DNA of 64,000 bases from Aureimonas sp. Leaf427 (lineage in GTDB: Bacteria; Pseudomonadota; Alphaproteobacteria; Rhizobiales; Rhizobiaceae), in NCBI RefSeq assembly GCF_001425485.1, contig NZ_LMQW01000023.1, positions 124,457 through 188,456 of the forward strand, given 5' to 3'. The position numbers were made by a program, and so were the translations under genes. The notes below the pieces were generated by a model. That model did not search any database. It saw only the letters and a program-made list of their open reading frames with translations, and had not been told where the DNA came from. This document shows positions 34,758 through 55,262 of this stretch, piece after piece (positions within the stretch are counted from its first letter, which is position 1; every line of letters starts with the position of its first letter).

Positions 34758-34975
34758 TCCCGCCGAGATGCTGGAGGCAGAACGTTCTACCGCCGGACGG
34801 GCCGGGCTTCCTGGCTCGGCCCGTCGGCGCAGTGGCCGGTTAGCCTATCAGAGCAATGGCAAACCCGCGCGGGAGATGCGCCTGCAGGAAGGACAACTCC
34901 CCCGCAGCCAGTCTGCCGCCACGCAATTGCCAGCGACCTTGCGACCCCACGCCTTGCCCCGCGCCATCGCACGGT

Positions 34976-35056
34976 GCGGCGGAACAGGTTGACGCGGCGA
35001 ACCGCCGAGCGGTAAAGCCCAAACGAAACGACCGTTCGGTAGCAGACTGGAAGTAG
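34976..35056 (+). pseudogene. C-terminal relic of a tyrosine integrase, older element
   Basis: The reading AAEQVDAANRRAVKPKRN at 34976-35029 matches the extreme C-terminus of the intact integrase at the right end of the element (AAEQVDAAIRRAVKPQA). The DNA similarity continues beyond the stop, through GACCGTTCGGTAGCA (35030-35044) and on towards the tRNA fragment at 35110, paralleling 55091-55170 on the right. Everything upstream of the last 18 codons is lost. This is the remnant of an earlier element of the same family that had integrated at this tRNA-Ser. Confidence 0.75.
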
Positions 35057-35109
35057 CGGCCCTCCCATTGAGGCTCTGCCCGGCCAAATCTCGCTAGCGA
35101 TCACAGCCT

Positions 35110-35150
35110 CCGGATGGGTGGCCGAGCGGTTGAAGGCACCGGTCTTGAAA
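35110..35150 (+). repeat. Left attachment repeat (tRNA-Ser 5' fragment)
   Basis: 41 bases identical to 55171-55211, starting two bases before the tRNA 5' end and ending in the anticodon loop (CTTGAAA), the usual crossover place for tRNA-targeting tyrosine integrases. After base 35150 the sequence no longer matches a tRNA, so this copy is a non-functional fragment. Confidence 0.92.
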
Positions 35151-37582: not shown

Positions 37583-37659
37583 AGCAGAGTGAAGAAGCCC
37601 GGTATCTCGTCTGGCTCATAACCAGAAGGCCGCACGTTCGAATCGTGCCTCTGCAACCA
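37583..37659 (+). tRNA. Initiator-type tRNA-fMet (anticodon CAU)
   Basis: A full 77-nt cloverleaf with encoded CCA. The acceptor stem GCAGAG/CTCTGC has an unpaired 1-72 position (A opposite A), the D arm contains the A11-U24 pair and the loop AGCCCGGTA, the anticodon stem-loop is TCTGG-CTCATAA-CCAGA, and the T arm is GCACG-TTCGAAT-CGTGC. The 1-72 mismatch and A11-U24 are bacterial initiator hallmarks, and the overall sequence follows the fMet pattern rather than elongator Met. The usual three G-C pairs of the initiator anticodon stem are here reduced to two (T29 replaces G). It lies inside the mobile element. Confidence 0.85.
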
Positions 37660-38698: not shown

Positions 38699-39028
38699 CT
38701 ATGCCGCTTCGGACATCCTCATGGCTAATGTGTTGGATCGGTCCATGAGCCTCTCCATGATCAGATACAGCCACGCTCGCATGGTGCCGCGTACCGGCCA
38801 CGGTCGCAGCCTTAGGGCACGCTCGCGAAGCGCCTCGAGGTCGATCCGGTCGAAGATGGCGAGGAGCTCGTCAGTTCTCTCATGCCAGTCCGGTCGCTGC
38901 GCCAAGACATCGGACACCGCGGCGATTGTCTCTGACGACAGGGCCTCAGCGTTCGGCGCGGACTCGCGGATGCACCGGAGGGTGAGAAGTAGGTGCGCCT
39001 CGCCTTCCTCTTTCAGGATCTTCTCCAT
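38699..39028 (-). CDS. Hypothetical protein
   Basis: 109 residues, highly charged and helical (MEKILKEEGEAHLLLTLRCI to RAWLYLIMERLMDRSNTLAM). No family recognised. The start is uncertain: an in-frame ATG at 39136 would add 36 residues with AGGAAG about 12 bases upstream. It belongs to the run of small minus-strand genes downstream of the tail module. Confidence 0.5.
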   Translation of the reverse strand: MEKILKEEGEAHLLLTLRCIRESAPNAEALSSETIAAVSDVLAQRPDWHERTDELLAIFDRIDLEALRERALRLRPWPVRGTMRAWLYLIMERLMDRSNTLAMRMSEAA

Positions 39029-39215
39029 GGTGCCGCGAGCATGCGTCTCTCCGGGCCTTCGACGCTGCCTGGTCGGGACGGCTTGTACGGAGAAGAAGTC
39101 GAGAAGGATCAGCAATCTGCCAGCAGATCCAGCCATGTGGCGGTCGCTTCCTACGATAAATCGAGCCCCTTAGGACCTCAGCGGCTGAGGACATACACTG
39201 TTTCGTCCACCCACT

Positions 39216-39838: not shown

Positions 39839-40597
39839 CTATGCCGGCTGAAGCTTCTGGCCCCGCAAAGCAGCATAAGCCGCGGCCCGCTCGTCGCAGA
39901 TTCGCTTGACGTCGGCCGTCTCCTTCGGCGTGGGGATCATCACGTCCCCTTGCACGTCGTCGTAGCGGTAGAGGACATGCGTCTGGCTGGTGTTCCGCCT
40001 GATGGTCGTCTCCTGGATGAAGCCGCCAGCGATAGCCCCGCCCTCCTCGATGTCGGACAGGCGAGCCGCATGGATGAACTTCGGCAAGGCCGAAGGGGTG
40101 AGGTCGAAGTTTCCGTCGTCGAGGACCAAGCCAAGGCTGGCGAGGATCTCGCGCGGCGCCGCGGGCGCGATGACGCACCATTCGATCGGGGTGACGACGA
40201 AGGCCTTGCGGGCCTCGCCGCCCTCATTCGTCTTTCGGTCGGTGGCCGAGATCGCATAGAGCTCGAAGCGCTCCCGGTCCTCCGACCATCCGCCGATGTA
40301 GATCGTGAAGTCGGGAAGCTGGCCCCGGATCGTGCTGACGAACTGCGCCGCTTGATGGGTGAGAACGTCCGCGCTCTCAACGATCTCATCGAAGCTGGTG
40401 AACCGATCATCCAGCGCTGCCTCGAAGATCGGCATGATGGCTGCGACGCCGCGATAGGTGAGGAAGCCGCTATAGACCGGCAGGAGCGCGACCTTGTGCG
40501 CGAGGCCGGCAAGTTCGAGCGTCTCCGGTCGATAGCTGGCGCCATCGCTGCAGATGTCGAACCCATGGTCGTGCATCGTGATGACGATCGCGGTCAT
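39839..40597 (-). CDS. Candidate proteasome/HslV-like Ntn-hydrolase fold protein of the tail module
   Basis: 252 residues, translationally coupled to the tape-measure gene by ATGA. After Met removal the protein would begin Thr-Ala-Ile-Val, with the pattern ICSDGASY placing an Asp at mature position 17, HKVALL placing Lys at 34, and YSGFLTYRG following. This spacing parallels HslV and proteasome beta subunits (Thr1, Asp17, Lys33, then a Gly-rich turn). The remaining 200 residues are not recognised. It could be an autonomous peptidase or a structural relative without activity. The assignment is by visual pattern only. Confidence 0.6.
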   Translation of the reverse strand: MTAIVITMHDHGFDICSDGASYRPETLELAGLAHKVALLPVYSGFLTYRGVAAIMPIFEAALDDRFTSFDEIVESADVLTHQAAQFVSTIRGQLPDFTIYIGGWSEDRERFELYAISATDRKTNEGGEARKAFVVTPIEWCVIAPAAPREILASLGLVLDDGNFDLTPSALPKFIHAARLSDIEEGGAIAGGFIQETTIRRNTSQTHVLYRYDDVQGDVMIPTPKETADVKRICDERAAAYAALRGQKLQPA

Positions 40598-43500
40598 GCT
40601 GCCTTCGGCCTTTCGAGAATGAGTTCTTCGCCGTCCTCGCCGGTGCCGGCGCCGATCGCGTCCGCCATGCTGGCGAAGCCGCCATGCGCCAAGGTCTTGA
40701 CGCCACCGCCGTTGATCGCCTCGAGGACGCCCCGATGCTTGGCTGTTGATGCGGCGTTGACGACGAACTCACCGTTGGAAAGCATGGCGTGTATGGAGTC
40801 TGACGTTCCCGTGCCGGGGCCGTAGACGCCGCCACCGCCGGCGAGGCGAAGCCCAGCCCAAGCGTCGCCGCCACCGGGCGCGCCCGTCATGCCGCCGGTG
40901 ATGTTGCCGGCCAGTGCGGATATCCACGAACCGCTGAACCCACCCTTGTTGCCGAGCCCCGAAGCGAAGGCGTCGAGGACCGACTGCAGGACACCGCTCA
41001 TCCGTGGCGTGAAGTCGTTCGCGATCTTCAGCATCTCCTGATCGAGCCCGCTGAAGGTGCCGGCGAGGCCGTCCGTCAGGCTCCTCGCGTTCGATGCGAA
41101 GGCAGAGACCGTGCTGTCGGTCGAGGAAGCCATCTTCTCGGCCGAGGCGTTGATGCGCTCGAAGGACTTCTCCGCGGCCGAGAGCCGGCCCCCGAAGTTG
41201 TGCGCGCCTTCCGGGTTGGCGAGGCTGAATCCCTGCGGACGCTCGAAGCCGGCGAAGGCTGCGGTGGCGCCGCGCACGTCCTTCGACGCGAGGAGGCGTC
41301 GGAACGCCGGGTTCTCCGTCGTCTGGAGTTCCTTCCAGGCGAAGTCGAGCTGGCTCTGGACGTTGCCGAGGTTCTGCTTCCCCCCGATCGACGCGAAGAG
41401 GTTGTTCTTCCGGTCGTTGTGCTGGAACAGGCCGAATGCCTGCCCTGCATCACCGACGGCCGTCGGGTTGAAGGCGCTCTCTGCCGACACGTTGCCGAGG
41501 ATGCCGGCCACCTGATGCGGCGCGAGGCCCTTGGCCGTGAAGTAGTTGGCGATCTGCGCTTCGACGGAGCCGCCCGCCATCTTCGCGCCGGCGCTGTTGC
41601 CGTTGGCCGGGTTGAGGAGCTTGTCGAGCGCGTTGGCAGCTCCGCCCTTCTCTCCGCCGCCTAGGAGCGGTGCGATTCCGCCCGCTCCGTTCAGATTCAC
41701 GACCGCCGCCGTCATCGTCACCGTACCGAGAGCGGAGGCACCGGCCCCGGCGGAGGACAGCGAAGGCGACTTCGTCCCGCCCATGAGATCGCCGAGCGTG
41801 CCGAGCGAGGTCCCAAGGAGCATGTTCTTCAGCGGGTTCGAAACCGCGAGCTGCAGGAAGGTGGAGGTGGTATCCTTCGCGACGCCCTTTAGGAGGTCTT
41901 TGACGTCCGCGGTGCCAGAGGCCAGGCCGTCCACGAGCGTGTCGATGGCATCGTCGCCGGCGCCCTTCAGCTCGCCCCACGCATCGGCCTGCCGACGGAT
42001 CGCGTCGCCATAGTCGGACAGCGCGCGGGTGTTCGCGATCTGCCCGCGGGCGAACTCGCTGTTGAGGTCGATCCCCTGCTCCCGGAGCTTCCGCTGCATG
42101 TCGTAGACGACGCCAGCCTGCCGGGCGAAATCCTCGCTCTGCCCGATCGTGCTGGCCTGCATGTCGAGGCCGCGGAGGTCCTCCATCTGCGACCGCACCA
42201 TGCGCAGCCGGTCGAGCTGGTCCGTCAGCGCGCCGGCGGCGGCCGTCGTGTCCCGGATGGCCTGCACTTCGGATGGATCGACCACTCGGCCCGCGTCCTC
42301 GGCTTCGCGGTAGAGCTGGAGGATCATCGTCTGTTGCTGGCGATAGGCCTCGGCCGCGCCGCGCGTCATGTCGAGGGTGGCCGCCTCGTCCTGGAGCGAT
42401 CGGATCATGTCGCCGCGGGCGCGGGCGCGGTCGCGGAGGTCGTCGGCTTGCTGCCTTGCGTCGGCCTCGTAGACCATGGCGGACGCATGGGAGATGCGAG
42501 CCTCGCGCTCCGATGCCTCCATGACCTGCCCGGAGAGGGCGAGCCGCTCCTGCTCGGCCGCGATGCCGGCGCGCTCGGCCGTCGTTCGGGCGTTGATGGA
42601 CCGGATGTCGAGATCCCGTCCGGCCCGGATGACGCCTTCCCGCCGCTCGATCTCCTGGAGCCCGGCGAGGTGCGTGGCGCGGGCGCTGCGCTCATCTGCT
42701 TCGGTGCGAGCCTTGCCGAGCGCGACCTGAAGGCTCTGGTCGAGACGGGACCGATCCGTGCGATTGTCCGGCACGAAGCCCCGGAGATCGCCCATGGCCT
42801 CCTTGAACTGTGTGCCCGCCAGGCGTGACCGAGCGGAGGCGAAGGCGTCGAGCTGTTGCTTCGCTGCCGCGGCCTCTTTGGCGAGTTCGATCAGCTTGTT
42901 GGCCGTGTCTCGAAGCGTCTCGTTGGTCGGATCTAGGTTGGCGATCTTCGCCACCTCGTCGACGAAGGCCCGCGCGTCCTCGGTCCCGGCCTTCAGGCCT
43001 TCCGCCAGCTTGACGAGCGGACCTTCGAACGCCTCGAAGCCGCGACGAGCTTCATACGTTCGGCCGCCGCTCTCTGTGCTGCGGGCTCGCGTCATGTCGC
43101 CACCGCCGGCGAAGCCGCTGTCGAGAAGCGACGTGCGAGAGGACAACTGCAGCTCCTCCGCACTCCGGCGAAGCTGGAAGGTCCGCGTGGCGCCAGAGGC
43201 ATAGGCCGACTGCGCATCGATCGCGAGACCGTAGGACTTCCCGATCTCGCCGATGATCTTCTTGTGGTCCTCCATCGCCTCGCTGAGGGGCTTGATGGAG
43301 CGCATGCCCTGGACGCCGTAGTAGATCGCGGCGCCCGCTATCGCGGTCAGCCCGACCACCGCAAGGCGCCCGGGAGTGATCAGGGAGGCAATCCCCTCGC
43401 CCACGGCTTTAAGCGAGCCAGCGAGGCCGCCAGGGCCCGACTGGAGGGCATCCACCACCTGCCCGATCTGGGAGGCGAAGATCTGCATGGGCGGGGCGCC

Positions 43501-43974
43501 GAGCGCCCACATGGTCGCGACGTCGTTGCCCTGCCGGCTGAGGTTCAGGAGCTGGTTGCTGGTCAGCTTCGCCTTGTCGCCCACCACGACCAAGGCAGCG
43601 GACTGCCTCTCGGCCGCCTGTGTCGCCTGAGCCCGGTAGGATGCCGCCTCGCGAGCGCTGAGGCCACCGGCGGCTTCGGCCTTCGTGATCGCGTCAAGGC
43701 TCGCCTGATAGCGCTGGGTGACCGCCAGGAGCGGGTTGAACTCCGCACGGAGCGACGCGACGGAGCGGGCGAGGTTGTCGTTCTCGGCCTGCGCCTTCTT
43801 TGCCGCTGCGGCCGTAGCGGACAGGCCATCGAATGCCTTCTTGCTTGCGTTGTTCAACCCCGCGGCCGCAGCCTCGGTTTTGCCCGCTGCGGCCGTCAGC
43901 TTGTCGAGCTGTGCAGCCGCGTCGAGGGCAGGCTTCGAATTGATCTCGAAACCAAGGGATGCGTACTGCGTCAT
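40594..43974 (-). CDS. Phage tail tape-measure protein with tail-lysozyme domain
   Basis: 1126 residues. The N-terminal third (to about residue 250) matches lambda-like tape-measure openings (TAAAKKAQAENDNLARSVAS, GLSAREAASYRAQATQAAE) with a hydrophobic segment GRLAVVGLTAIAGAAIYYG. Long Ala/Arg/Glu coiled-coil follows. Around residues 815-945 a tail-lysozyme-type domain occurs (PHQVAGILGNVSAESAFNP, AFGLFQHNDRKN), which would open peptidoglycan on DNA entry. By the usual rule of about 0.15 nm per residue, a tail near 170 nm is implied, characteristic of a siphovirus. Confidence 0.85.
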   Translation of the reverse strand: MTQYASLGFEINSKPALDAAAQLDKLTAAAGKTEAAAAGLNNASKKAFDGLSATAAAAKKAQAENDNLARSVASLRAEFNPLLAVTQRYQASLDAITKAEAAGGLSAREAASYRAQATQAAERQSAALVVVGDKAKLTSNQLLNLSRQGNDVATMWALGAPPMQIFASQIGQVVDALQSGPGGLAGSLKAVGEGIASLITPGRLAVVGLTAIAGAAIYYGVQGMRSIKPLSEAMEDHKKIIGEIGKSYGLAIDAQSAYASGATRTFQLRRSAEELQLSSRTSLLDSGFAGGGDMTRARSTESGGRTYEARRGFEAFEGPLVKLAEGLKAGTEDARAFVDEVAKIANLDPTNETLRDTANKLIELAKEAAAAKQQLDAFASARSRLAGTQFKEAMGDLRGFVPDNRTDRSRLDQSLQVALGKARTEADERSARATHLAGLQEIERREGVIRAGRDLDIRSINARTTAERAGIAAEQERLALSGQVMEASEREARISHASAMVYEADARQQADDLRDRARARGDMIRSLQDEAATLDMTRGAAEAYRQQQTMILQLYREAEDAGRVVDPSEVQAIRDTTAAAGALTDQLDRLRMVRSQMEDLRGLDMQASTIGQSEDFARQAGVVYDMQRKLREQGIDLNSEFARGQIANTRALSDYGDAIRRQADAWGELKGAGDDAIDTLVDGLASGTADVKDLLKGVAKDTTSTFLQLAVSNPLKNMLLGTSLGTLGDLMGGTKSPSLSSAGAGASALGTVTMTAAVVNLNGAGGIAPLLGGGEKGGAANALDKLLNPANGNSAGAKMAGGSVEAQIANYFTAKGLAPHQVAGILGNVSAESAFNPTAVGDAGQAFGLFQHNDRKNNLFASIGGKQNLGNVQSQLDFAWKELQTTENPAFRRLLASKDVRGATAAFAGFERPQGFSLANPEGAHNFGGRLSAAEKSFERINASAEKMASSTDSTVSAFASNARSLTDGLAGTFSGLDQEMLKIANDFTPRMSGVLQSVLDAFASGLGNKGGFSGSWISALAGNITGGMTGAPGGGDAWAGLRLAGGGGVYGPGTGTSDSIHAMLSNGEFVVNAASTAKHRGVLEAINGGGVKTLAHGGFASMADAIGAGTGEDGEELILERPKAA

Positions 43975-43992
43975 CAGCTCTCTCCTGCCTGA

Positions 43993-44436
43993 TCAGGCGG
44001 CCTTCGCCGCCAGCTCGACGGCAGCCGCTTCCGCTTCGGCCGCACGGCGTCCGGCTGGCTGGTACGGGAGACGGCTGGCAGCGTGGACGTCGACCTGGAT
44101 GCGGAGCCACGGCACCGTCTGGAGCATCTTCACGACGTTCTCGTGCGTACATTCGAAGGGCGCGTCGCCGTCCTCGAGCCCCTTCCAGTCGATGACGCTC
44201 CGGGCGAGGAGGTCGATCGTCATCGCTTCGTTGTCCTCGGCCGCCATGTTGCCGCGCCGATCAACCTTGTTCGCGAAGCGCTCGATGGTTTGGAAACGAC
44301 CCTTGCGCTGGCGCTCGCTGTCGGGCCCCGCGACGAGGAACTCGATGTCGGTCAGCTCGCCGTCGGGCTGGTAGATTTTCAGCCAGGAGCCCTCCTCCTG
44401 GAGCGCGATCGGTGCGATGAGTTCGTTGATGTCCAT
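43993..44436 (-). CDS. Phage tail assembly chaperone-like protein
   Basis: 147 residues located directly upstream of the tape-measure gene, the fixed position of the tail assembly chaperone in siphophages. Sequence supports it: VIDWKGLEDGDAPFECTHENVVKMLQTVPWLRIQV is typical of chaperone proteins that act on tail components, and the Ala/Glu-rich C-terminus is common. No slippery frameshift product was identified. Spacing to the tape measure gene is 18 bases. Confidence 0.65.
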   Translation of the reverse strand: MDINELIAPIALQEEGSWLKIYQPDGELTDIEFLVAGPDSERQRKGRFQTIERFANKVDRRGNMAAEDNEAMTIDLLARSVIDWKGLEDGDAPFECTHENVVKMLQTVPWLRIQVDVHAASRLPYQPAGRRAAEAEAAAVELAAKAA

Positions 44437-44567
44437 GGTCGGTCAGCTCCGAATGGCGAGAGAAAGGGGCGAGCGGACCTGCCGGACCAACAACCGACAG
44501 GCCCGCCTAAGCACCGGCTGGCGGACGAGACCACCGGCGCTATCGGGATGGGTGAAAAGGGCGCGCA

Positions 44568-45146
44568 TCAGTCGATCACCCGCGTCTGAGCGCCGTGATG
44601 ATTGGTGACGGCTGAGGCTTGGCTGCTCCAAAGGATGGGCAGGATCGGCTTGCGGTTGTTCAGGTCGCCGATGGCGTCGAGGCGAGCGCTTCGGAAGTTG
44701 CCGAGCTGCGGCATGCCGGCCTTCGTCTCGTGCGCGAGGTTGGAGGCCTGCGTCGTGAGGGCGAACGCCTCATCCTGAAGCTTTTCGAAGCGCTGCGTGG
44801 CGTTGACGAAGGCGTTCCAGCTCTCGACCATCTCATCGATCACGCCGTCGACCTCGGTGGCCGCCTCGTCGTGGCGCAGCTTGATCCGCACCATGGCCTC
44901 GGCGCCTTCGCGGAGGATCGCTTCCGGCAAGAGGCCTTCCAGGGCAATGCGTTCCGCACGCAACCGGCGCGCAACGCGCTCGGCCTCCTGTTGCGCCGCT
45001 TCGGTCGCGTCGGCATCGCCGCCGTTGCGCATCACGGTCGCCAGCTCGGCGTCGAGGTCACGGGCCGCAAAGGCTCGCTCGTCTCGGCCGATCGCCGCGA
45101 GCCGGTCGCGGATGGCCTGGACGGACATGGTGTTGATCGCGCTCAT
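44568..45146 (-). CDS. Hypothetical protein of the terminase-tail operon
   Basis: 192 residues, mostly helical coiled-coil (LDAELATVMRNGGDADATEAAQQEAERVARRLRAERIA), ending in a basic polar tail. Unrecognised. The ATG at 45146 overlaps the previous gene's stop by one base (TGATG). It occupies the position where portal or capsid genes would be expected but resembles neither. Confidence 0.65.
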   Translation of the reverse strand: MSAINTMSVQAIRDRLAAIGRDERAFAARDLDAELATVMRNGGDADATEAAQQEAERVARRLRAERIALEGLLPEAILREGAEAMVRIKLRHDEAATEVDGVIDEMVESWNAFVNATQRFEKLQDEAFALTTQASNLAHETKAGMPQLGNFRSARLDAIGDLNNRKPILPILWSSQASAVTNHHGAQTRVID

Positions 45147-45415
45147 CAGACGAGCACTCCCGGGAAGAGGTTCGGATTGACCGGCGCCTTGCTCCAGCCG
45201 GGATGCGCGGCGGCAAGGGCGTCCCGCTCCTGTTGCGCGAGGATCGCCTGATAGGGCCGCACCGCGTCCTCGATGGCCTTCGTCACCGCGACCGGGACGC
45301 TTCCAGCTGCCGTCATCATGGCCGCCTGCGCTTCGTGGATGACGGTCTCCATCCGGGCGAAGGCCACGTCTTCCGCATCGGGCTTGGCGCCCTTGAGCCG
45401 CCTCCGCTTGCCCAT
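45146..45415 (-). CDS. Small hypothetical protein of the terminase-tail operon
   Basis: 89 residues with a very basic N-terminus (MGKRRRLKGAKPD), a central amphipathic helix and the ending PVNPNLFPGVLV. Unrecognised. Start and stop overlap neighbours by one base on both sides, so it is tightly embedded in the operon. Confidence 0.6.
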   Translation of the reverse strand: MGKRRRLKGAKPDAEDVAFARMETVIHEAQAAMMTAAGSVPVAVTKAIEDAVRPYQAILAQQERDALAAAHPGWSKAPVNPNLFPGVLV

Positions 45416-45753
45416 CAGTCGGTGGCCTTCGGAAGAGCGAAGCCGTTGCCGCGGTTCTGTCCGAACGGCTGACGATCGGCGCCATCGGCCGCCGGCAGAC
45501 GGAAGCTGCTGCTCTGCCGTTTGTCGCCGCCCTGGAGCCGGTTCACGACGGCCTGCGCTTGGTTGAGCTCGATCTTGTCGAGCGTGGCCGAGACGTTCGT
45601 GAAGGCATCGGCGACGGCGGTGTTGAGCTTGGCCTTCTCGACATCGGAGAGGCCTTCCTCGATCTTCTTGAGGCGCTTCATCAGCTCCGGGATGGAACCT
45701 TCCTTCAGCTTCGTCGCCTCTCCGACGTTCTGCAGAAACGATATATTGCTCAT
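45415..45753 (-). CDS. Hypothetical protein of the terminase-tail operon
   Basis: 112 residues, helical (SIPELMKRLKKIEEGLSDVEKAKLNTAVADAFTNVSATLDKIEL) with a Gln/Arg-rich tail. Unrecognised; not a portal. Two starts compete: ATG 45753 behind CAGAGGATAAACCT, and ATG 45780 overlapping the terminase stop (ATGA). The better ribosome site favours 45753. Confidence 0.6.
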   Translation of the reverse strand: MSNISFLQNVGEATKLKEGSIPELMKRLKKIEEGLSDVEKAKLNTAVADAFTNVSATLDKIELNQAQAVVNRLQGGDKRQSSSFRLPAADGADRQPFGQNRGNGFALPKATD

Positions 45754-45776
45754 AGGTTTATCCTCTGTTGAGCGGG

Positions 45777-47213
45777 TCATCCCGCGGCCCTGGAAAGCCG
45801 GTGGCGGGAGGTGAGAAACATGGCGGCCGAGGCGGGTTGCGTTCCGACGAGCGAGACGAGGACACCCGCCGCGGCGTTGGCGACGTCGTCATGGGCTTTC
45901 GGCGCATGGTCGATGCTGTCCCGCCCGCCGCGGCTGGTGCGGCGCTCCAGGCCGACGAGCTGGGCGATGAGGCGGGGATGGTCGAGAAGATCGACGTTGC
46001 CGCTGTTCACGGCCGGGAGAAGGTCCCGATAGAGATCGGACTTCGGCTTGGCCGACTGCTCGAAGGTGATCTCGTGACGCCGGAATGCCTCTGGAGGCCA
46101 CTCGCCAGCGTATCGATCGCCCGTCACCTTGTGGACGCCGTAGCTCTTTAGAAGCGCGGCATACTCCGCGACGACGTTCTCCGGGCTGAGGGGCGGCTTC
46201 GCTTCCCGGATCACGTCCAGGATGCCCTTGCCGCCCTCTTCGTGCGCGATGGCGAGCGTGAAGCTGTCGGAGGCGCCGCCGGACGGATCGACGAAGCCGG
46301 CATATTCCACGCCGCTGATGCGCTTGCGCTCGAGGACGCCCGGCGACACCACGGCATCCACTGCCTCGCGCGTCAGGAAGGCCTCCACGTCCGTTCGGAA
46401 CTGTCCGAGGTATTCCGCGCGGGCCGAAGCCTCATCGCGCTCCATGGCCCGGTCGACGACGCGCTGCTTCAAGGTCGGGTTGAGAAGCCGGGACGCACCC
46501 TGCGCCACGAGGATCAAAGGATCGCCCGCCGTCCCAAAATGCCGCTTCCATGTCGTGTAGACCTCGCCGCGCCGAGCATACGGGCTGGAAATCACGACCA
46601 AGGGGCCGCCCGTCGTCGCAAGGCCAGGCCGAACGGCGTTCAGGATGTCGGTGTCCGGGTTCGCGCTGTCGTCCGATCGCCAGAAGGCCGCCTCGTCCGC
46701 GATCACTGCCGCATAGGTCGGGCCGCGCGAGGTCCGCTTGCTGGCAGGCCGGATCTGGAGGTCGATCCGGTTGGACAGGGCCAGAAGGCTCGCAGTCTCG
46801 TTCTGGATCATGCGCTTCAGCACGGGCGCGTTGTGGATGATGCCGTGCGCGTAGCCGAAGGCGACCTCCGCCTGATCTTGGCTCGCGGCCATGAAGGCCA
46901 CCATCGCCCGCTCGCCGACGGAAAGGATGTCGGAATAGTCGATCAGCGTGCCGAAGTAGACCGCCAGGACGGCCATGGCGCGCGTCTTGCCTCCACGGCG
47001 CCCGATGATGCCCCAGAACTCTTCGACGCGCTCTCCGGGCTCCTGTGGCCGCCCTGTCAGCGTCTCAAAGACGACGCGCTCCTCATCCGTCAGCTTCTCG
47101 CCCATGGCCGCGATCAGAAGGGACCGCCAGCCAAGCCAGCTATCGCCGGGCATGACGCGGCCGAATAGCTCCGGCTCGGCAAGGGCATCGCGCATCGGGA
47201 GGAGAGCCCGCAT
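45777..47213 (-). CDS. Phage terminase large subunit
   Basis: 478 residues. ATPase half: Walker A GRRGGKTRAM near residue 70, Walker B AAVIADEAAF, coupling motif LVVISSPYARRGEVY. Nuclease half: FVDPSGGASDSFTLAI with the metal-binding Asp, and HAPKAHDDVANAAAG, the second acidic site. Complete by length and motifs, so it should pump DNA. Downstream, however, there is no portal gene for it to dock on. It overlaps the small-subunit candidate (TGATG). Confidence 0.9.
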   Translation of the reverse strand: MRALLPMRDALAEPELFGRVMPGDSWLGWRSLLIAAMGEKLTDEERVVFETLTGRPQEPGERVEEFWGIIGRRGGKTRAMAVLAVYFGTLIDYSDILSVGERAMVAFMAASQDQAEVAFGYAHGIIHNAPVLKRMIQNETASLLALSNRIDLQIRPASKRTSRGPTYAAVIADEAAFWRSDDSANPDTDILNAVRPGLATTGGPLVVISSPYARRGEVYTTWKRHFGTAGDPLILVAQGASRLLNPTLKQRVVDRAMERDEASARAEYLGQFRTDVEAFLTREAVDAVVSPGVLERKRISGVEYAGFVDPSGGASDSFTLAIAHEEGGKGILDVIREAKPPLSPENVVAEYAALLKSYGVHKVTGDRYAGEWPPEAFRRHEITFEQSAKPKSDLYRDLLPAVNSGNVDLLDHPRLIAQLVGLERRTSRGGRDSIDHAPKAHDDVANAAAGVLVSLVGTQPASAAMFLTSRHRLSRAAG

Positions 47214-47605
47214 CAGGCAGGCTCACGCGAAGCGAGGAGCGAGGCGAGCGTCGGGCCCTCCTCCGCGGCCGCGCCAGCCTTCAAGCCGAGCTGACGCTGA
47301 AGGCGGGCCTGGAGGTTCGAGAGGCGCACGAACTGCTCGTGGTCGACCTTCTCGCCCTTGACGATAGCGGCCTGGATCTTCTCGCTCTCGACCAAGTTGG
47401 CGGCGAGCTGCCGGATCGTGGCGGACTGCGAAGTGGAGAGCTTGTCGGCCCCGCCAAGATCATCGGCGAAGGCCATGCACAGGTCACGGTAGCGACGCCC
47501 CGCGGCAGTGCGGTTGTCCACGCCCTCCAAGCGCCACGAACTGTTCGTGATCGCAGCCCGATTGCGCTTCGAAGTGGCGACGGAGTCGTGTGCAAGTGCG
47601 CTCAT
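47213..47605 (-). CDS. Candidate terminase small subunit
   Basis: 130 residues immediately upstream of the large terminase, with overlapping stop and start. Helical throughout: RYRDLCMAFADDLGGADKLSTSQSATIRQLAANLVESEKIQAAI, then LSNLQARLQRQLGL. The position and helical oligomer-like character suit a small terminase DNA-recognition subunit, but no HTH motif is clear. ATG 47605 is chosen by family-like length. Confidence 0.6.
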   Translation of the reverse strand: MSALAHDSVATSKRNRAAITNSSWRLEGVDNRTAAGRRYRDLCMAFADDLGGADKLSTSQSATIRQLAANLVESEKIQAAIVKGEKVDHEQFVRLSNLQARLQRQLGLKAGAAAEEGPTLASLLASREPA

Positions 47606-47761: not shown

Positions 47762-48556
47762 TCAGGATCGCGATGGGATGGAGAACTGGCAATTAGTCCA
47801 GAGCTCCTCCGCGTTCCGACGAGACTGACCTTTGGCTTCGTCCCAATCGAAGGAGGTGCTGTTGATCGCCTTGTTCAGCTCCTCAACCAGCTCGATAGTT
47901 TCGCTTAGGAGATCAGTCTCACCGCCGTAGCGCCATCGGTCCGACTCGGTCTCTTCGCCCTCTGCCGGCTCCGGCAGATCTAGATTGTGCGCAATCGCTC
48001 GATCACGAAGATCCCTCAGCGCTTCCACTTTGGCGGACGCAGCGATCTCTCGGCATCGCTGTATGGCCCTCTGCATACCGGCTCTCGCAGCCTCGACGCG
48101 TTCCTCGGAAATGCGCTTCTGGCCGTGCCCGAAGAGTTCGCGAATTTCCTGTGCCGTAGCGGGGTCGAGATCCTCTTCGCCAACGATGTGCAGATGCGGA
48201 GGCTGTGCTTCCCGCTCTCTCATTCGGTTCAAGACAGCTTCGATGACGGCACGGTCGTCGATCAACTTCACCACAGTCGGGATGCTCTCTCGATCGCTGC
48301 CGTAGCCGTCCCACATGGCGGCAAGGCGTATGAGCTCGAAGAGATACATGCTCCGCTGAAACTGCCGGAAGGCGTGACCAGCATGGGACCGCGGGATCTG
48401 AGCAGTCAGCGTGGTGGAGTAGAGCACGATCTCGTTGGATGCATGCATGGCGACGAGGGCGCGTGCAAGATCGACCATCCTATCAGTCCGCACCATCGCT
48501 TGCTCTAGTCTTTCAGCGACAGAGAGCGCTGCGAGCTTCTTCTCCCACCTGCTCAC
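47762..48556 (-). CDS. AbiU2/HEPN-like protein, candidate abortive-infection factor
   Basis: 264 residues. The middle LYSTTLTAQIPRSHAGHAF, YLFELIRLAAMWDGYGSDRESIPTV and KVEALRDLRDRAIAHNL form the all-helical AbiU2-type HEPN pattern, ending in R-X5-H (RDRAIAH), the RNase-like active motif of HEPN toxins. AbiU2 proteins take part in phage abortive infection; that activity is inferred. GTG 48556 lies three bases after the recombinase stop, so the two genes are expressed together. No paired nucleotidyltransferase antitoxin gene is visible. Confidence 0.65.
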   Translation of the reverse strand: MSRWEKKLAALSVAERLEQAMVRTDRMVDLARALVAMHASNEIVLYSTTLTAQIPRSHAGHAFRQFQRSMYLFELIRLAAMWDGYGSDRESIPTVVKLIDDRAVIEAVLNRMREREAQPPHLHIVGEEDLDPATAQEIRELFGHGQKRISEERVEAARAGMQRAIQRCREIAASAKVEALRDLRDRAIAHNLDLPEPAEGEETESDRWRYGGETDLLSETIELVEELNKAINSTSFDWDEAKGQSRRNAEELWTNCQFSIPSRS

Positions 48557-48559
48557 AGG

Positions 48560-49234
48560 CTATGCTGCCTGCGCTAAGACTCGGGACACCTGCCCTGCCG
48601 TCCACGATGTTCCCCCGCGAGCCGTCGGAATGCCTCGCTCTGTCAGGGCCCGGGCGATACCTCCGAGGCTCGTCGTGCCAGCGGCCTTCAGTTCGGTGAT
48701 GATGGGCAGGAGATCGGACGCTCGCGCCCTGGCCTTGGCTGTCGCGGCTGCTCTGCCGGCCATACGAGCCTCAGGGCTGATGATGGAGCCCCGGTTGCCG
48801 CCAAGCTTGGTCCCACGCGCTTTCGCTGCCTGGAGAGCCGCCTTAGTCCGCTGAGAGATCATGCGCCGCTCGGCCTGCGCCACCACGGCCATGATGCCGA
48901 CGACCATCTCGTTCGCTTCCGGCATGTCGGCCGCTACGAACTTCACAGCGCCCTTCTGGAGGCCGAGGAGGAAGGCCGCGTCACGGGATAGGCGATCCAG
49001 CTTCGCAATGACCAGCGTGGCCTTGTGGAGCCGGCAGAGCGCCATGGCTTCGGCGAGCTTCGGGCGATCGTCCTTTCCGCCGCTCTCGATCTCGACGACC
49101 TCCTGGACGAGCTTCCAGCGGCCACCGTTCAGATAATCCGCGACGGCTTGGCGCTGCGCCTCTAGGCCGAGACCGGACTTGCCCTGCCGTTCGGTGGAGA
49201 CCCGGAGATACGAGATGAAGCGCCCGTCTGCCAT
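48560..49234 (-). CDS. Serine recombinase (resolvase/invertase family)
   Basis: 224 residues. The N-terminal catalytic domain has the nucleophile Ser in YLRVSTERQGKSGLGLE, then DRPKLAEAMALCRLHKATLVIAKLDRLSRDAAFL and the EMVVGIMAVVAQAERRMISQRT core. A short HTH of resolvase type (LGGIARALTERGIPTARGG) ends it. Such small serine recombinases act as resolvases or invertases on short DNA segments. It is a second recombinase in the element besides the tyrosine integrase and forms a unit with the AbiU2-like gene. Confidence 0.88.
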   Translation of the reverse strand: MADGRFISYLRVSTERQGKSGLGLEAQRQAVADYLNGGRWKLVQEVVEIESGGKDDRPKLAEAMALCRLHKATLVIAKLDRLSRDAAFLLGLQKGAVKFVAADMPEANEMVVGIMAVVAQAERRMISQRTKAALQAAKARGTKLGGNRGSIISPEARMAGRAAATAKARARASDLLPIITELKAAGTTSLGGIARALTERGIPTARGGTSWTAGQVSRVLAQAA

Positions 49235-51193: not shown

Positions 51194-51406
51194 TCATGCC
51201 GCCCTGCCCTCATCGCGCTCTGTGATGCGATCGCGGATCCACCCGTCCACCTCTGCCTCGATCCAAGCGACGGTGCCGCGGGAGGGCCGAACAGGCTTCG
51301 GAAACGCGCCCTTCTCGACCAGCGTCAACATCGTCCGTTTGCTGAGACCGACGCGATCGAGCACCGCGGCGATGCGGAGAAGACGTGGAGGGGTTGAGGC
51401 GCTCAT
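51194..51406 (-). CDS. AlpA-family DNA-binding/excisionase-like protein
   Basis: 70 residues: RLLRIAAVLDRVGLSKRTMLTLVEKGAFPKPVRPSRGTVAWIEAEVDGWIRDRI is the winged-helix AlpA/excisionase fold (recognition helix SKRTMLTLV, wing ending in VAWIEAEVDGWI). Such proteins regulate integrase genes or direct excision. ATG 51406 overlaps the stop of the initiator gene (ATGA), the last gene of the minus-strand early operon. Confidence 0.8.
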   Translation of the reverse strand: MSASTPPRLLRIAAVLDRVGLSKRTMLTLVEKGAFPKPVRPSRGTVAWIEAEVDGWIRDRITERDEGRAA

Positions 51407-52239
51407 GCTGCCTGTCTCCGATGAATGATCGCCGCGGCCCGATGCCGGAACCACTCGGCCGTGCTGTACGTCCGGCAGGCGAGGAGGTCCCGCCAGTGAA
51501 CCGGCATGAAGTCGTCTTGAGAACCCGTCGCCGCGTCGAACGCCTGTTGCGTGAAGCGCTCGATTGCCCCGGCCCCGATCTCGCCATCCCGCATCAGGTC
51601 GCGGACGGTCCGGTCGAAAGCGTCGAGGAAGTCGTGATCCCCTCCCCAGGACGGCGGAGGTGAAGGGTCAGGCCGGCGCGTCGCCGATGGGTCAGGTGAA
51701 GGGTCAGCTCTCTCCGATTGGTCCCTCGCGTGCGTGTGGTCACCAAGGGTTTTTTCTCCAGAGCGGATCTTAGAGTCAGGGGTAGTTCTGTCAGGTATAT
51801 TGGGTCCCCCGTATGACCCATCACCTACTCGTTTCTGACCCTTCACTTCGGGCTGACCCTTCACCTCCTGACCCTTCACCTCGACGGCTTTCTGACCCTT
51901 CACCTCGGGCATGGTGAGGAAGATGCGGCGAAGCTTGCCGGACGCTTCGCTCTTCTGGTCTCGCTTAACGATCGTATGGCGCTCGATCAGGTCTGCCATC
52001 TCCAGATCCTTCAGTCCCCGCTTGATGGTCTCGCGCGAAGCCTGCAGATCGCCGCGCAGATCGTCGTCGGTCGGAAAGGCGTATCCGAACTCGCGGTTGA
52101 CGTAGGTCGGCAGAACCGTCGCGATGCGCATGGCACTACGGGAAAGAGCGCGGCTTGCGGCCGCGCTCCTCCATTCGTCTCGAAGGGCGTTGAACCGAGC
52201 CGCGTCCACCGAGACGAAGTCGATGCGCTGCCCTGTCAC
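51403..52239 (-). CDS. Replication initiator-like protein with internal iterons
   Basis: 278 residues. Residues 30-105 are a winged-helix domain (RALSRSAMRIATVLPTYVNREFGYAFPTDDDLRGDLQASRETIKRGLKDLEMADLIERH), similar to phage O-type and plasmid initiators. A linker with four PEVKGQ-like repeats spans residues 112-130, and a C-terminal part (HDFLDAFDRTVRDLMRDG..., WRDLLACRTYSTAEWFRHRA) follows. The repeats coincide with DNA iterons, as in lambda O, whose gene contains ori. First assignment of function is by this analogy. Coupled to the AlpA-like gene downstream. Confidence 0.65.
   Translation of the reverse strand: MTGQRIDFVSVDAARFNALRDEWRSAAASRALSRSAMRIATVLPTYVNREFGYAFPTDDDLRGDLQASRETIKRGLKDLEMADLIERHTIVKRDQKSEASGKLRRIFLTMPEVKGQKAVEVKGQEVKGQPEVKGQKRVGDGSYGGPNIPDRTTPDSKIRSGEKTLGDHTHARDQSERADPSPDPSATRRPDPSPPPSWGGDHDFLDAFDRTVRDLMRDGEIGAGAIERFTQQAFDAATGSQDDFMPVHWRDLLACRTYSTAEWFRHRAAAIIHRRQAA
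51657..51905. repeat. Seven-copy 13-bp iteron array, probable replication origin
   Basis: The unit is AGGTGAAGGGTCA. On the plus strand its complement TGACCCTTCACCT occurs at 51854, 51869 and 51893, with one-base variants at 51814 (TGACCCATCACCT) and 51836 (TGACCCTTCACTT). The opposite orientation, AGGTGAAGGGTCA, occurs at 51658-51670 and 51694-51706. Spacings are 22, 18, 15 and 24 bases. The two groups flank a segment (51707-51813) with T-runs and TATAT, a possible unwinding element. The array lies wholly inside the initiator-like gene. Confidence 0.75.
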
Positions 52240-53452: not shown

Positions 53453-53944
53453 GTGGCAAGACCCAAGCTCGGTGAAGGCGATACGCAGAGACTTCAGCTG
53501 AAGATCAGCGATGAGGAGTTGAAAGCGATCGACGATTGGCGGTTTGCCAATCGTGTGGAGTCACGCTCCGAAGCTGTCCGCCGCCTCTGCCAGATTGGCC
53601 TTCAAGTCGATATCAACATCAGTCGTCTTGAAGGCATTATGGATGAAGCAGAGAAATCGCTTGCAGAGGACGCTCAAGATATAATCAAGGGCGCGGGCGC
53701 GGCGCCCTCAAAAGAACAGATGCAGACGTTCTTTATGACTTTAATAAAGGCGTACATGCGTTCGAACGATTTCGTGCATGATATATCGCAAACCATAAGA
53801 GATAGCTTTCAGAAGGCAACTACTTTCCGCGAACCTGGTCAGATGAATGAACTACTGAACAGGGCCGATGAATTAGAGGAAGCCTTCAGCAAATTCAGAG
53901 TTCTTATCGAAAAGGGCCGAGCTAAAAAGGAGGTTCATAAATGA
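53453..53944 (+). CDS. Ribbon-helix-helix-type regulator
   Basis: 163 residues. The N-terminus RLQLKISDEELKAIDDWRFANRVESRSEAVRRLCQIGLQ is a classic ribbon-helix-helix DNA-binding unit (strand, then two helices with S-R-S-E-A-V-R-R-L). A long helical C-terminal part may form the oligomer. AT-richer than flanking genes. GTG 53453 has CCAGGAG upstream. Its stop overlaps the integrase ATG (ATGA), so it is expected to autoregulate itself and the integrase. Confidence 0.75.
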   Translation: MARPKLGEGDTQRLQLKISDEELKAIDDWRFANRVESRSEAVRRLCQIGLQVDINISRLEGIMDEAEKSLAEDAQDIIKGAGAAPSKEQMQTFFMTLIKAYMRSNDFVHDISQTIRDSFQKATTFREPGQMNELLNRADELEEAFSKFRVLIEKGRAKKEVHK

Positions 53945-55092
53945 AGGGCTCCATCCGCGAACGCTCCCCCGGCAAGTGGGCCATCATCGTTGACGTCCAT
54001 GATCCGGAGACTGGCGAACGCCGCCGGAAGTGGCACAGCTTCGCCGGCACGAAGCGCCAAGCGCAGGAGGAATGCGCGCGGATCGTCACGTCGATCAAGC
54101 ATGGCGGATACACCGAGCCGACGAAGATCACCGTCGGCGAGTTCCTAGAACGCTGGCTTGAACAAGAGGCGTCCAACGTGGCGCCGAAGACGCTCGAGCG
54201 CTATGCCGAGATCGCCCGCAAGAACATCGTGCCCCTTCTCGGTAGGACGACGCTGGCGAAGCTGAAGCCGGAGGCGATCGACGGGGCGTGGACGAAGGCA
54301 CTCGCGTCGGGCAGGCGCGATGGGAAAGGCGGGCTCTCCCCGCGCACCGTCCATCACATGCGGCGCGTGTTGATCAAGGCATTGAACCAGGCTGTCGTTT
54401 GGGAGATCCTGGCGAAGAACCCGGCGACGCTCTCCAAGCCACCGAAGGTCGAGCGCAAGGCCATGAAGGCCTATGGAGCCGGAACGACGGCCGAGCTGCT
54501 CGACGCCATCCGGGGCTCTCGCATCTTCGTGCCGGTGCTGCTGGCGGTCATGTGTGGCCTCAGACGCGGCGAGATCATCGCCCTCCGCTGGCAGAGCATC
54601 GACTTCGCAAATCGAAGAATTGCCGTCACCGAGACCGCGGAGCAAACGCTCGGCGCCGTTCGGAACAAGGAGACGAAGACGGGCCGATCGCGAACCGTCG
54701 ATCTATCTTCGACCGTCATGGACGAGCTCCGCCGGCACAGGGCTGCGCAGGCCGAGGAGCAGCTGAAGCTCGGCATCCGGCCGGACGAGCGATCCTTCGT
54801 TGTCGCACAGATCGACGGTAAGCCTCTACAGCCCCGTTCGCTTAGCCATGAGTGGACCCGCGTCTTGGCGAAGACCTCTCTGGAGCGCATCCGCTTCCAC
54901 GATCTACGGCACAGCCACGCCACGCAGATGCTCGCTGCCGGCGTCCATCCGAAGGTTGCGCAAGAGCGGCTGGGCCATTCCACGATTGCCATCACGCTCG
55001 ACACGTATTCGCATGTGATGCCGGGAATGGGTGCTGATGCTGCGGAACAGGTTGACGCCGCGATCCGTCGGGCGGTAAAGCCCCAGGCGTAA
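53941..55092 (+). CDS. int: Tyrosine integrase of the element
   Basis: 383 residues. N-terminal AP2-like arm-binding domain (GSIRERSPGKWAIIVDVHDPETGERRRKWHSFAGTK), then SAM-like core-binding domain (TVGEFLERWLEQEASNVAPKTLERY), then the catalytic domain with Arg in CGLRRGEIIALRW, Lys in NKETKTGRSRTV, HDLRHSHATQ, LGHSTIAIT and nucleophile Tyr in TYSHVMPG. All catalytic residues are present. It ends 80 bases before the tRNA-Ser, the normal integrase-att arrangement, and matches the decayed copy left of the element. Confidence 0.93.
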   Translation: MKGSIRERSPGKWAIIVDVHDPETGERRRKWHSFAGTKRQAQEECARIVTSIKHGGYTEPTKITVGEFLERWLEQEASNVAPKTLERYAEIARKNIVPLLGRTTLAKLKPEAIDGAWTKALASGRRDGKGGLSPRTVHHMRRVLIKALNQAVVWEILAKNPATLSKPPKVERKAMKAYGAGTTAELLDAIRGSRIFVPVLLAVMCGLRRGEIIALRWQSIDFANRRIAVTETAEQTLGAVRNKETKTGRSRTVDLSSTVMDELRRHRAAQAEEQLKLGIRPDERSFVVAQIDGKPLQPRSLSHEWTRVLAKTSLERIRFHDLRHSHATQMLAAGVHPKVAQERLGHSTIAITLDTYSHVMPGMGADAAEQVDAAIRRAVKPQA

Positions 55093-55100
55093 GACCGTTC

Positions 55101-55118
55101 GGTAGCAAAATGGTAGCA
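55101..55118 (+). repeat. Arm-type repeat, right end
   Basis: GGTAGCAAAATGGTAGCA, identical to 35270-35287 near the left end, placed between the integrase stop and the tRNA-Ser core. A degenerate version (GGTAGCA at 35038-35044) accompanies the older relic outside the left end. Confidence 0.6.
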
Positions 55119-55170
55119 ACGGCCCAAATTGGGCACATCGCCAATCCAATTTCGCTAACGATATCAAGCC

Positions 55171-55211
55171 CCGGATGGGTGGCCGAGCGGTTGAAGGCAC
55201 CGGTCTTGAAA
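55171..55211 (+). repeat. Right attachment repeat within tRNA-Ser
   Basis: Identical to 35110-35150 over 41 bases and forming the 5' half of the intact tRNA. Because the 3' half beyond the anticodon loop is present only here, the native 3' half is on this side and the 5' half was supplied by the element. Confidence 0.92.
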
Positions 55212-55262
55212 ACCGGCGGGCGGGAAACCGTCTCGTGGGTTCGAATCCCACCCCATCCGCCA
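55173..55262 (+). tRNA. tRNA-Ser (anticodon UGA)
   Basis: 90-nt class II tRNA with encoded CCA: acceptor GGATGGG/CCCATCC, D arm GCCGAGCGGTTGAAGGC, anticodon stem-loop CCGGT-CTTGAAA-ACCGG, a long variable arm (GGGCGGGAAACCGTCTC), and T arm GTGGG-TTCGAAT-CCCAC. Its upstream sequence is now element-derived, so its promoter may have come with the element. Only intact copy in the window. Confidence 0.97.

Follow-up and report, generated by a model that had tools for sequence, protein, structure and literature searches.

Our analysis of a 64,000-nucleotide stretch of Aureimonas sp. Leaf427 DNA (contig NZ_LMQW01000023.1, positions 124,457 to 188,456; hereafter, the window, which lies on contig C23 of a 5.43-Mb genome) revealed a 20,061-bp integrated element, bounded by a 41-bp exact repeat in a tRNA-Ser gene (span 35110-55211), that encodes a candidate small terminase (TerS), a large terminase (TerL), a tail assembly chaperone (TAC), and a tape measure protein (TMP). 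Pfam and PHROGs searches of 20 proteins of this element found no portal, protease, or capsid. We consider it probable that the element is a complete phage satellite, which would package its DNA with its own terminase into the heads of a helper phage and assemble a chimeric tail around its own TMP and TAC. The initial annotation of this DNA had proposed a satellite, with a decayed siphoprophage as the plain alternative; we prefer the former because the same headless TerS-TerL plan recurs in other, precisely bounded tRNA elements.

The genes that carry this reading all lie on the minus strand in the order initially annotated, namely, TerS, TerL, three small genes, TAC, TMP, and a gene coupled to TMP. 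The TerS candidate (47213-47605; 130 amino acids [aa]) was assigned from its place before TerL and from its family (phmmer gave 88 matches at E ≤ 0.01, of which the nine listed all lie directly upstream of a TerL); Pfam gave it no match, and PHROGs none below E 0.15. TerL (45777-47213; 478 aa) matches phrog_2 (E 8e-19) and Pfam Terminase_6N, the latter with a score of 22.2 bits that is barely over the cut-off of 22. Alignment with 11 relatives showed that GRRGGKT, DE, and acidic residues are conserved in it, which we take to be the Walker A, Walker B, and nuclease motifs, respectively. Among the small genes, the first (45415-45753, or from 45780; 112 aa) and the second (45146-45415; 89 aa) have no relative among the loci described below according to phmmer, and the second shows a partial match to phrog_23855 (unknown function; E 7e-4); the third (44568-45146; 192 aa) has one relative there (L066, 37% identity) and encodes a predicted long-helix protein. 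TAC (43993-44436; 147 aa) matches phrog_313 (E 3.5e-16) and is 30% identical to an Alteromonas phage tail assembly chaperone. TMP (40594-43974; 1126 aa) matches phrog_19487 (E 4e-78) and carries a phage tail-lysozyme domain (PF18013, E 9e-22). The TMP-coupled gene (39839-40597; 252 aa), which has weakly similar counterparts after the TMP in L066, L073, and a second element of the host, found no counterpart among 50,697 phage records at E ≤ 1e-3 and, in a single-protein search of 60 genomes, two weak matches beyond the window's own; it may encode a satellite-specific partner of TMP. The junction letters bear out the overlaps that had been reported: TGATG stop/start overlaps occur at 47213, 45415, and 45146, and a 4-base ATGA overlap occurs at 45777-45780 (with the longer start of small gene 1), with another at 40594-40597 joining TMP to its coupled gene. 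Two junctions do not overlap, being spaced by 131 bp (small gene 3 to TAC) and 18 bp (TAC to TMP).

The ends of the element are precisely defined. The left end, attL (35110-35150), is a 41-bp exact copy corresponding to the 5′ half of tRNA-Ser, and its counterpart, attR (55171-55211), overlaps the intact tRNA-Ser(TGA) gene (55173-55262), next to a 383-aa tyrosine integrase gene (53941-55092, plus strand; PF00589, E 2e-29; phrog_1, E 1.5e-71). The claim of a 20-kb element with its own integrase stands. In a genome of the same genus (G431), a different element (L226; C5, 100500-120400) occupies the same tRNA-Ser; its integrase is 81% identical to that of the window, its left end is marked by 39 of the 41 attL bases, and it has an end gene in common with the window element, as well as a 550-aa gene near small genes of the kind that come after TerL in other loci. 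In a third species of the genus, the tRNA is intact and no second copy of the 39 bases was reported. Together, the G431 element and the third species indicate that the ends are real and that the site is reused by modular elements. A wider, imperfect repeat also surrounds the attL region, in which positions 34975-35062 show 81% similarity to the region at the 3′ end of the integrase gene (55038-55125) and are possibly the relic of an older, related insertion. A tRNA-Met (CAT) gene (37583-37659) lies inside the element, close to its left end.

The virion gene set of the element is incomplete, as judged from the Pfam and PHROGs searches above and from genome-wide searches for PF04860 portals and PF05065 capsids. 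A portal or capsid hidden among the three small genes was considered and rejected: the largest product is predicted to be a long helix, and the others measure 89 and 112 aa. More specifically, the 192-aa protein was predicted to be all-helical, with no strands and one helix of 97 residues (pLDDT 73, from a two-sequence alignment), and a Foldseek search of this model against the PDB gave no match at E ≤ 0.001. Of the structural and remote-homology check that the initial annotation had proposed for these genes, this covers the 192-aa protein, which matched no head protein; the 89- and 112-aa proteins were not folded. Its statement that head and lysis genes are absent holds for the head, no head gene having been found, and is qualified for lysis by the lysozyme domain of TMP. 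For comparison, the free Rhizobium phage RHph_N28_2, in which terminase, portal, head and tail genes, and a TMP are annotated, has a TMP and a TAC related to those of the window. Its TerL-to-TAC distance is ~10.2 kb, portal and head genes included, versus 1.3 kb in the window, where three small genes occupy the place of the head module of a siphoprophage.

Relatives of TerL were drawn from 84,980 species genomes, where 202 of 283 candidate stretches encode a TerL relative (E ≤ 1e-3 among candidates) and the best 80 were studied, and from IMG/VR, where 85 of 122 candidates were confirmed and the best 80 were taken. Within the order, 17 of 397 genomes had a TerL match at E ≤ 0.001; 11 of these were strong (E ≤ 4e-59), the window genome included, and the six weak ones are probably other TerLs. 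Cultured phages gave distant matches only (4 records, 21-26% identity). According to record titles, the best 80 of the 202 genome relatives come mostly from Alphaproteobacteria, and also from Gammaproteobacteria, Nitrospira, Acidobacteria, and Binatia. The usual order in genome loci is integrase, small helix-turn-helix genes, primase/replication gene, TerS, and TerL, the last often followed by a coiled-coil gene and, in some loci, by a TMP and a few tail genes. We counted 88 genome loci, having dropped the duplicates L064, L115, and L125 (near-duplicates may remain); L030 and L032, in which TerL is on the minus strand, stand outside our row table, and L030 has a TMP match near TerL. Neighbor counts were based on the 68 loci with at least 5 kb of upstream and at least 8 kb of downstream flank. 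An integrase is nearby in 56 of them and a same-strand TMP follows TerL at 1.1-4.4 kb in 25, and our local detector, which consists of five portal families drawn from viral loci, found a portal downstream of TerL in none. The same detector found a portal within 7 kb after TerL in 31 of 80 viral loci (mostly of lower TerL identity, on contigs of 5-116 kb), and it therefore does find portals of its families. Relatives with portal and capsid genes after the terminase had been named at the outset as an observation that would speak against a satellite; portals do follow TerL in those viral loci, but the local detector found none downstream in the flanked genome loci.

Other searches agreed with the detector within their own scope. 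Used as tblastn queries, two real HK97-type portals matched none of 91 loci at E ≤ 1e-3, while the corresponding capsid queries matched six of them. At the genome level, where PF04860 was searched in 45 genomes and PF05065 in 30 (the searches did not include PF06381, DUF4055, and other portal families), PF04860 had matches in 23 genomes of a set of 30 hosts of relatives and in 6 of a further 15, and none lay within 70 kb of TerL on its contig in the 11 genomes of the order with matchable contigs; for draft genomes with unmatched contig numbers, the local portal tests alone apply. Among 115 downstream representatives, the 25 commonest families (of 136 PHROGs and 56 Pfam families) include no portal, a result that is weak when taken alone, and 29 further proteins picked by size or place and scanned singly gave no portal either. 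Gene calls were made by a home-made GC-based caller, which fails in the low-GC loci L068 and L113 and partly in L050, for which open reading frames (ORFs) were re-listed.

Among 89 loci examined, some of which have no tRNA in the available DNA, 29 elements (8.6-20.1 kb; that of the window included) are delimited by exact tRNA repeats of 40 bp or more; repeats of 18-22 bp (L028, L059, L060, and L077) were not counted as att sites. Twelve of the 29 carry a TMP downstream of TerL, and three carry a capsid gene. The TMP entries of the row table come from manual seeding, with family support from PHROGs and Pfam for 17 candidates (one of which proved to be a host enzyme), from phage annotation (tblastn), and from hhalign; this support is weaker in L028, L030, L054, L087, and L096, and L054 has no PHROG tail match. 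The coiled-coil family that follows TerL in 29 loci (one pair being identical) was predicted to consist of helices only (pLDDT 87), and its model matched nothing in the PDB or the viral library at E ≤ 0.001. An iterated hidden Markov model search did not join the 192-aa protein of the window to this family, so the resemblance between the two is limited to place and kind.

In 85 of the 88 genome loci, TerL is open across at least 420 model positions in a single frame. In the pair L094 and L102, dN/dS was lowest for TerL (0.13), followed by the coiled-coil gene (0.15), TMP (0.22), and the gene downstream of TMP (0.30), and the first three of these are under purifying selection in this single pair. 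In a TerL tree of 157 rows (FastTree, local support), the window TerL belongs to a set of 33 rows with 100% support, in which a single row has a portal according to the local detector. On this tree, TMP presence switches at least 17 times (71 labeled genome loci: 27 with and 44 without), and hhalign resolved several TMP groups, of which L066, L073, and the L062 group, among others, are linked to the window TMP and the L022, L052, and L026 groups are not. The recurrence of the plan, the repeated TMP changes, and the variety of TMP groups make deletion fossils a poor fit.

It is for these reasons that we regard as unlikely the foremost alternative, a decayed siphoprophage that would have lost its head and lysis genes and most of its tail genes by deletion and survive as a fossil. 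Several genes of unknown function at the left end of the element, the losses that a comparison with RHph_N28_2 would allow, the older integrase 3′-end relic beside attL, and a relative with a broken TerL (L031) fit such decay. In contrast, the window element keeps intact, overlapping ORFs and an intact att pair, the same gap is found in 25 of 68 loci whose TMPs belong to different families, and its TerL sits in a supported set with a single portal-bearing row. The satellite is preferred over the fossil because the plan recurs, because TerL stays open in nearly all genome loci, and because purifying selection is seen in the one pair.

Several observations nevertheless weigh against a satellite. 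No helper was identified, and PF04860 portals and PF05065 capsids, the only families sought, occur in the host genome solely at two places, on contigs C34 and C42. The G431 element L226 yielded nothing meaningful for TerS, TerL, or TMP (a lone TerL match, at E 0.004, looks spurious), and the terminase is therefore not essential to this integrase lineage; of the gene order for which a search in tRNA-Ser had been suggested, we thus recovered a same-genus element at the site, though one with no terminase or TMP match. L096 has a 333-aa portal-like fragment 7.2 kb upstream of TerL that the two-portal tblastn missed, so that this search covers only part of portal diversity. For the window TAC, a single relative turned up in the loci (L066, E 5e-4), where it comes after TMP instead of before it. 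In L031, TerL is interrupted by a transposase-like insert, showing that some copies decay. Finally, the portal state changes at least 11 times over the TerL tree, and portal-bearing and portal-less relatives therefore do not form two clean clades.

As a satellite, the element would excise and replicate when a helper phage grows in the cell. Its TerS would mark element DNA, and its TerL would dock at the portal of the helper procapsid and fill it. Its TAC and TMP would then displace those of the helper, such that helper tube, tip, and fibers are built on a satellite ruler. Such a chimeric tail could set tail length, the TMP lysozyme domain could route DNA through the envelope, and possession of its own ruler could shield the satellite against tail-directed interference. 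The long-helix gene after TerL would be our leading candidate for one that influences the assembly of heads. We infer self-packaging into helper procapsids from the gene content, and alteration of the tail from the analogy with satellites described below.

A different use of the same genes, in which TMP and TAC are weapons that poison helper tail assembly in a dominant-negative manner while the satellite exits with helper tails only, seems to us improbable. Inhibition of tail assembly is a known strategy, represented by Tai (PMC11364771) and by Rta in PLE11 (PMC12987554), but neither is described as a TMP homologue in the excerpted text of these sources. An AbiU2-type HEPN protein (47762-48556, minus strand; PF18734, E 5e-29), probable anti-phage cargo, likewise suggests that the element carries defence genes. 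Against a poison, TMP is full length with a lysozyme domain and is kept next to TAC, and purifying selection acts on TMP in the one pair of relatives compared.

The least credible alternative is that the heads come from a gene transfer agent or from another element such as that on C34, and not from an infecting phage: the host does have both, the C34 element with a portal, a protease-like gene, a capsid, and a related TMP, but the TMP candidate of the gene-transfer-agent-like cluster on C42 (by position) is short, at 195 aa, and 16 of 45 genomes have no PF04860 portal match, so that a donor of this type cannot be general. The C34 element (~228793-245562; L046 and L047) carries an integrase, an AlpA-like gene, TerL, the portal, the capsid, the protease-like gene, and a TMP that is 43% identical to that of the window over 470 aa and is followed by two genes weakly like the TMP-coupled gene. 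It thus shares with the window element an integrase, an AlpA-like gene, a related TMP, and genes of the TMP-coupled type, whereas it differs in its portal and capsid and, as read from its sequence, in its TerL, and it resembles a capsid-forming phage-inducible chromosomal island (cf-PICI). The C42 cluster (210988-225474; L208 and L209) has a PF04860 portal and a PF05065 capsid by search, and we take it to be gene-transfer-agent-like, its terminase, protease, and tail gene names and its gene order being our presumption.

Returning to the satellite reading, some relatives carry single head parts. An HK97-type capsid protein is encoded soon after TerL in 6 of 91 loci (L059, L068, L070, L071, L103, and L113), with those of L059, L068, and L113 confirmed by PHROGs. 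According to record titles, L068, L070, L103, and L113 come from genera that we presume to be gammaproteobacterial. Repeats of 58-59 bp in tRNA-Leu delimit L068 and L113, at 9.4-9.7 kb, and in both, the capsid is the sole same-strand ORF of at least 90 aa from TerL to the element end; L059 and L071 also carry a gene read as a prohead protease. Similarly, the viral contigs L143, L148, and L195 (scanned), and L130 (of the same local cluster, unscanned), combine satellite-like surroundings with a DUF4055-type protein, which we take to be a portal, and the local detector found no capsid gene in their available DNA. From their gene content, the single-capsid and DUF4055 relatives suggest that satellites replace single virion parts. 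The chances appear to us evenly balanced that all these loci form a widespread, unnamed satellite group with its own TerS-TerL and no full head module, whose lineages would each swap one or a few helper virion parts. Many of them would exchange the tail ruler and chaperone, a gammaproteobacterial set a lone capsid, a few the capsid plus protease, and a few the portal. If so, the window element would be the tail-ruler version of a group whose core is the terminase and whose virion part is a swappable cassette. The TerL family also occurs at 44-50% identity on Methylobacterium and Komagataeibacter plasmids (NZ_CP121649.1, NC_010373.1, NZ_CP019881.1, and NZ_CP134887.1), which are possibly satellite-plasmids.

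The remaining annotated genes of the element lie on the minus strand. A weakly supported replication-initiator-like (lambda O-like) protein (51403-52239; phrog_678, E 3.6e-5) is encoded by a gene that contains three copies of a 15-16-bp tandem repeat (51835-51883), which possibly are origin iterons; of the origin initially attributed to the element, the analysis recovered this weak replication-type gene. Beside it are an AlpA-type excisionase/regulator (51194-51454; PF05930, E 1.5e-10) and a small serine recombinase/resolvase (48560-49234; PF00239, E 2e-27), which lies upstream of TerS, recurs in the loci (29 phmmer matches at E ≤ 0.01 among their gene calls), and perhaps resolves multimers before packaging. 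For a conserved end gene of the phrog_22699 family (38699-39136), phmmer gave 19 matches in the loci (E ≤ 0.01).

Among known satellites, phage-inducible chromosomal islands (PICIs), including the Staphylococcus aureus pathogenicity islands (SaPIs), carry an integrase, a regulator, and a replication gene, as does the window element, and are not known to have a TerL of their own. In some SaPIs, their own TerS redirects packaging, and PICIs and SaPIs use or redirect the helper terminase (PMC10690885), whereas the window element has its own TerL, which keeps its catalytic residues, and tail genes. Phage-inducible chromosomal minimalist islands (PICMIs) are likewise small satellites with an integrase, alpA, and a replication gene, but they are reported to reside at fis, with complete ones confined to Vibrio, and the text of the PICMI paper nowhere uses the word "terminase".

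The cf-PICIs are closer. They are of similar size (average, 14 kb), have their own TerS and TerL, and, in a sampling of them, a putative tmp (PMC12987554). They differ in encoding a major capsid, protease, portal, and connectors (PMC10690885), none of which was found in the window element; its TerS-TerL pair agrees with theirs, TerS by position and family only. An HNH gene near the terminase, a cf-PICI trait, had no match among the 20 element proteins scanned, other short ORFs lying outside that scan.

The phage-inducible chromosomal island-like elements (PLEs) of Vibrio cholerae (PLE1, PLE4, and PLE11) offer the nearest parallel for the tail. They are of similar size (average, 18 kb; PMC10803314) and, like the window element, have TMP and TAC genes of their own, their other tail parts being phage-derived (PMC12987554). 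As reported in the excerpted text of that study (Nature 2026, PMC12987554), PLE11 particles contain the PLE TMP and exclude the phage TMP and baseplate hub, PLE11 tails are ~10 nm shorter, as expected, and deletion of tmp lowers transduction by 96% in PLE1 and 99% in PLE4; the legend of its Extended Data Fig. 10 mentions tmp in PLE-like elements and in a sampling of cf-PICIs. Before these chimeric tails were described in 2026, well-studied satellites were thought to take helper tails (PMC12987554). Because of these PLE results, tail substitution by satellites is already known. The window element differs from PLEs in its TerS candidate and TerL, its host group, and its tRNA-Ser site, and the text of the PLE paper does not contain the word "terminase" (PMC12987554). 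The two were compared by description, chimeric tails having been shown in PLEs and being proposed for the window element.

A headless satellite with its own TerS and TerL plus a TMP was not found in the open-licence PubMed Central literature, and what is new here is tail substitution combined with an own TerS-TerL, no head genes, and a large family. Ordinary annotation would be expected to call such elements prophage remnants. If headless elements with a terminase and a tail ruler, which are mostly alphaproteobacterial and have counterparts with other versions of the plan in Gammaproteobacteria and a few further groups, are satellites, they would suggest that the helper virion can be rebuilt part by part, and they raise the question of how a satellite terminase docks on a foreign phage portal. 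For now, the window element is best filed as nearest to cf-PICIs by its terminase and nearest to PLEs by its tail genes, with membership shown in neither.

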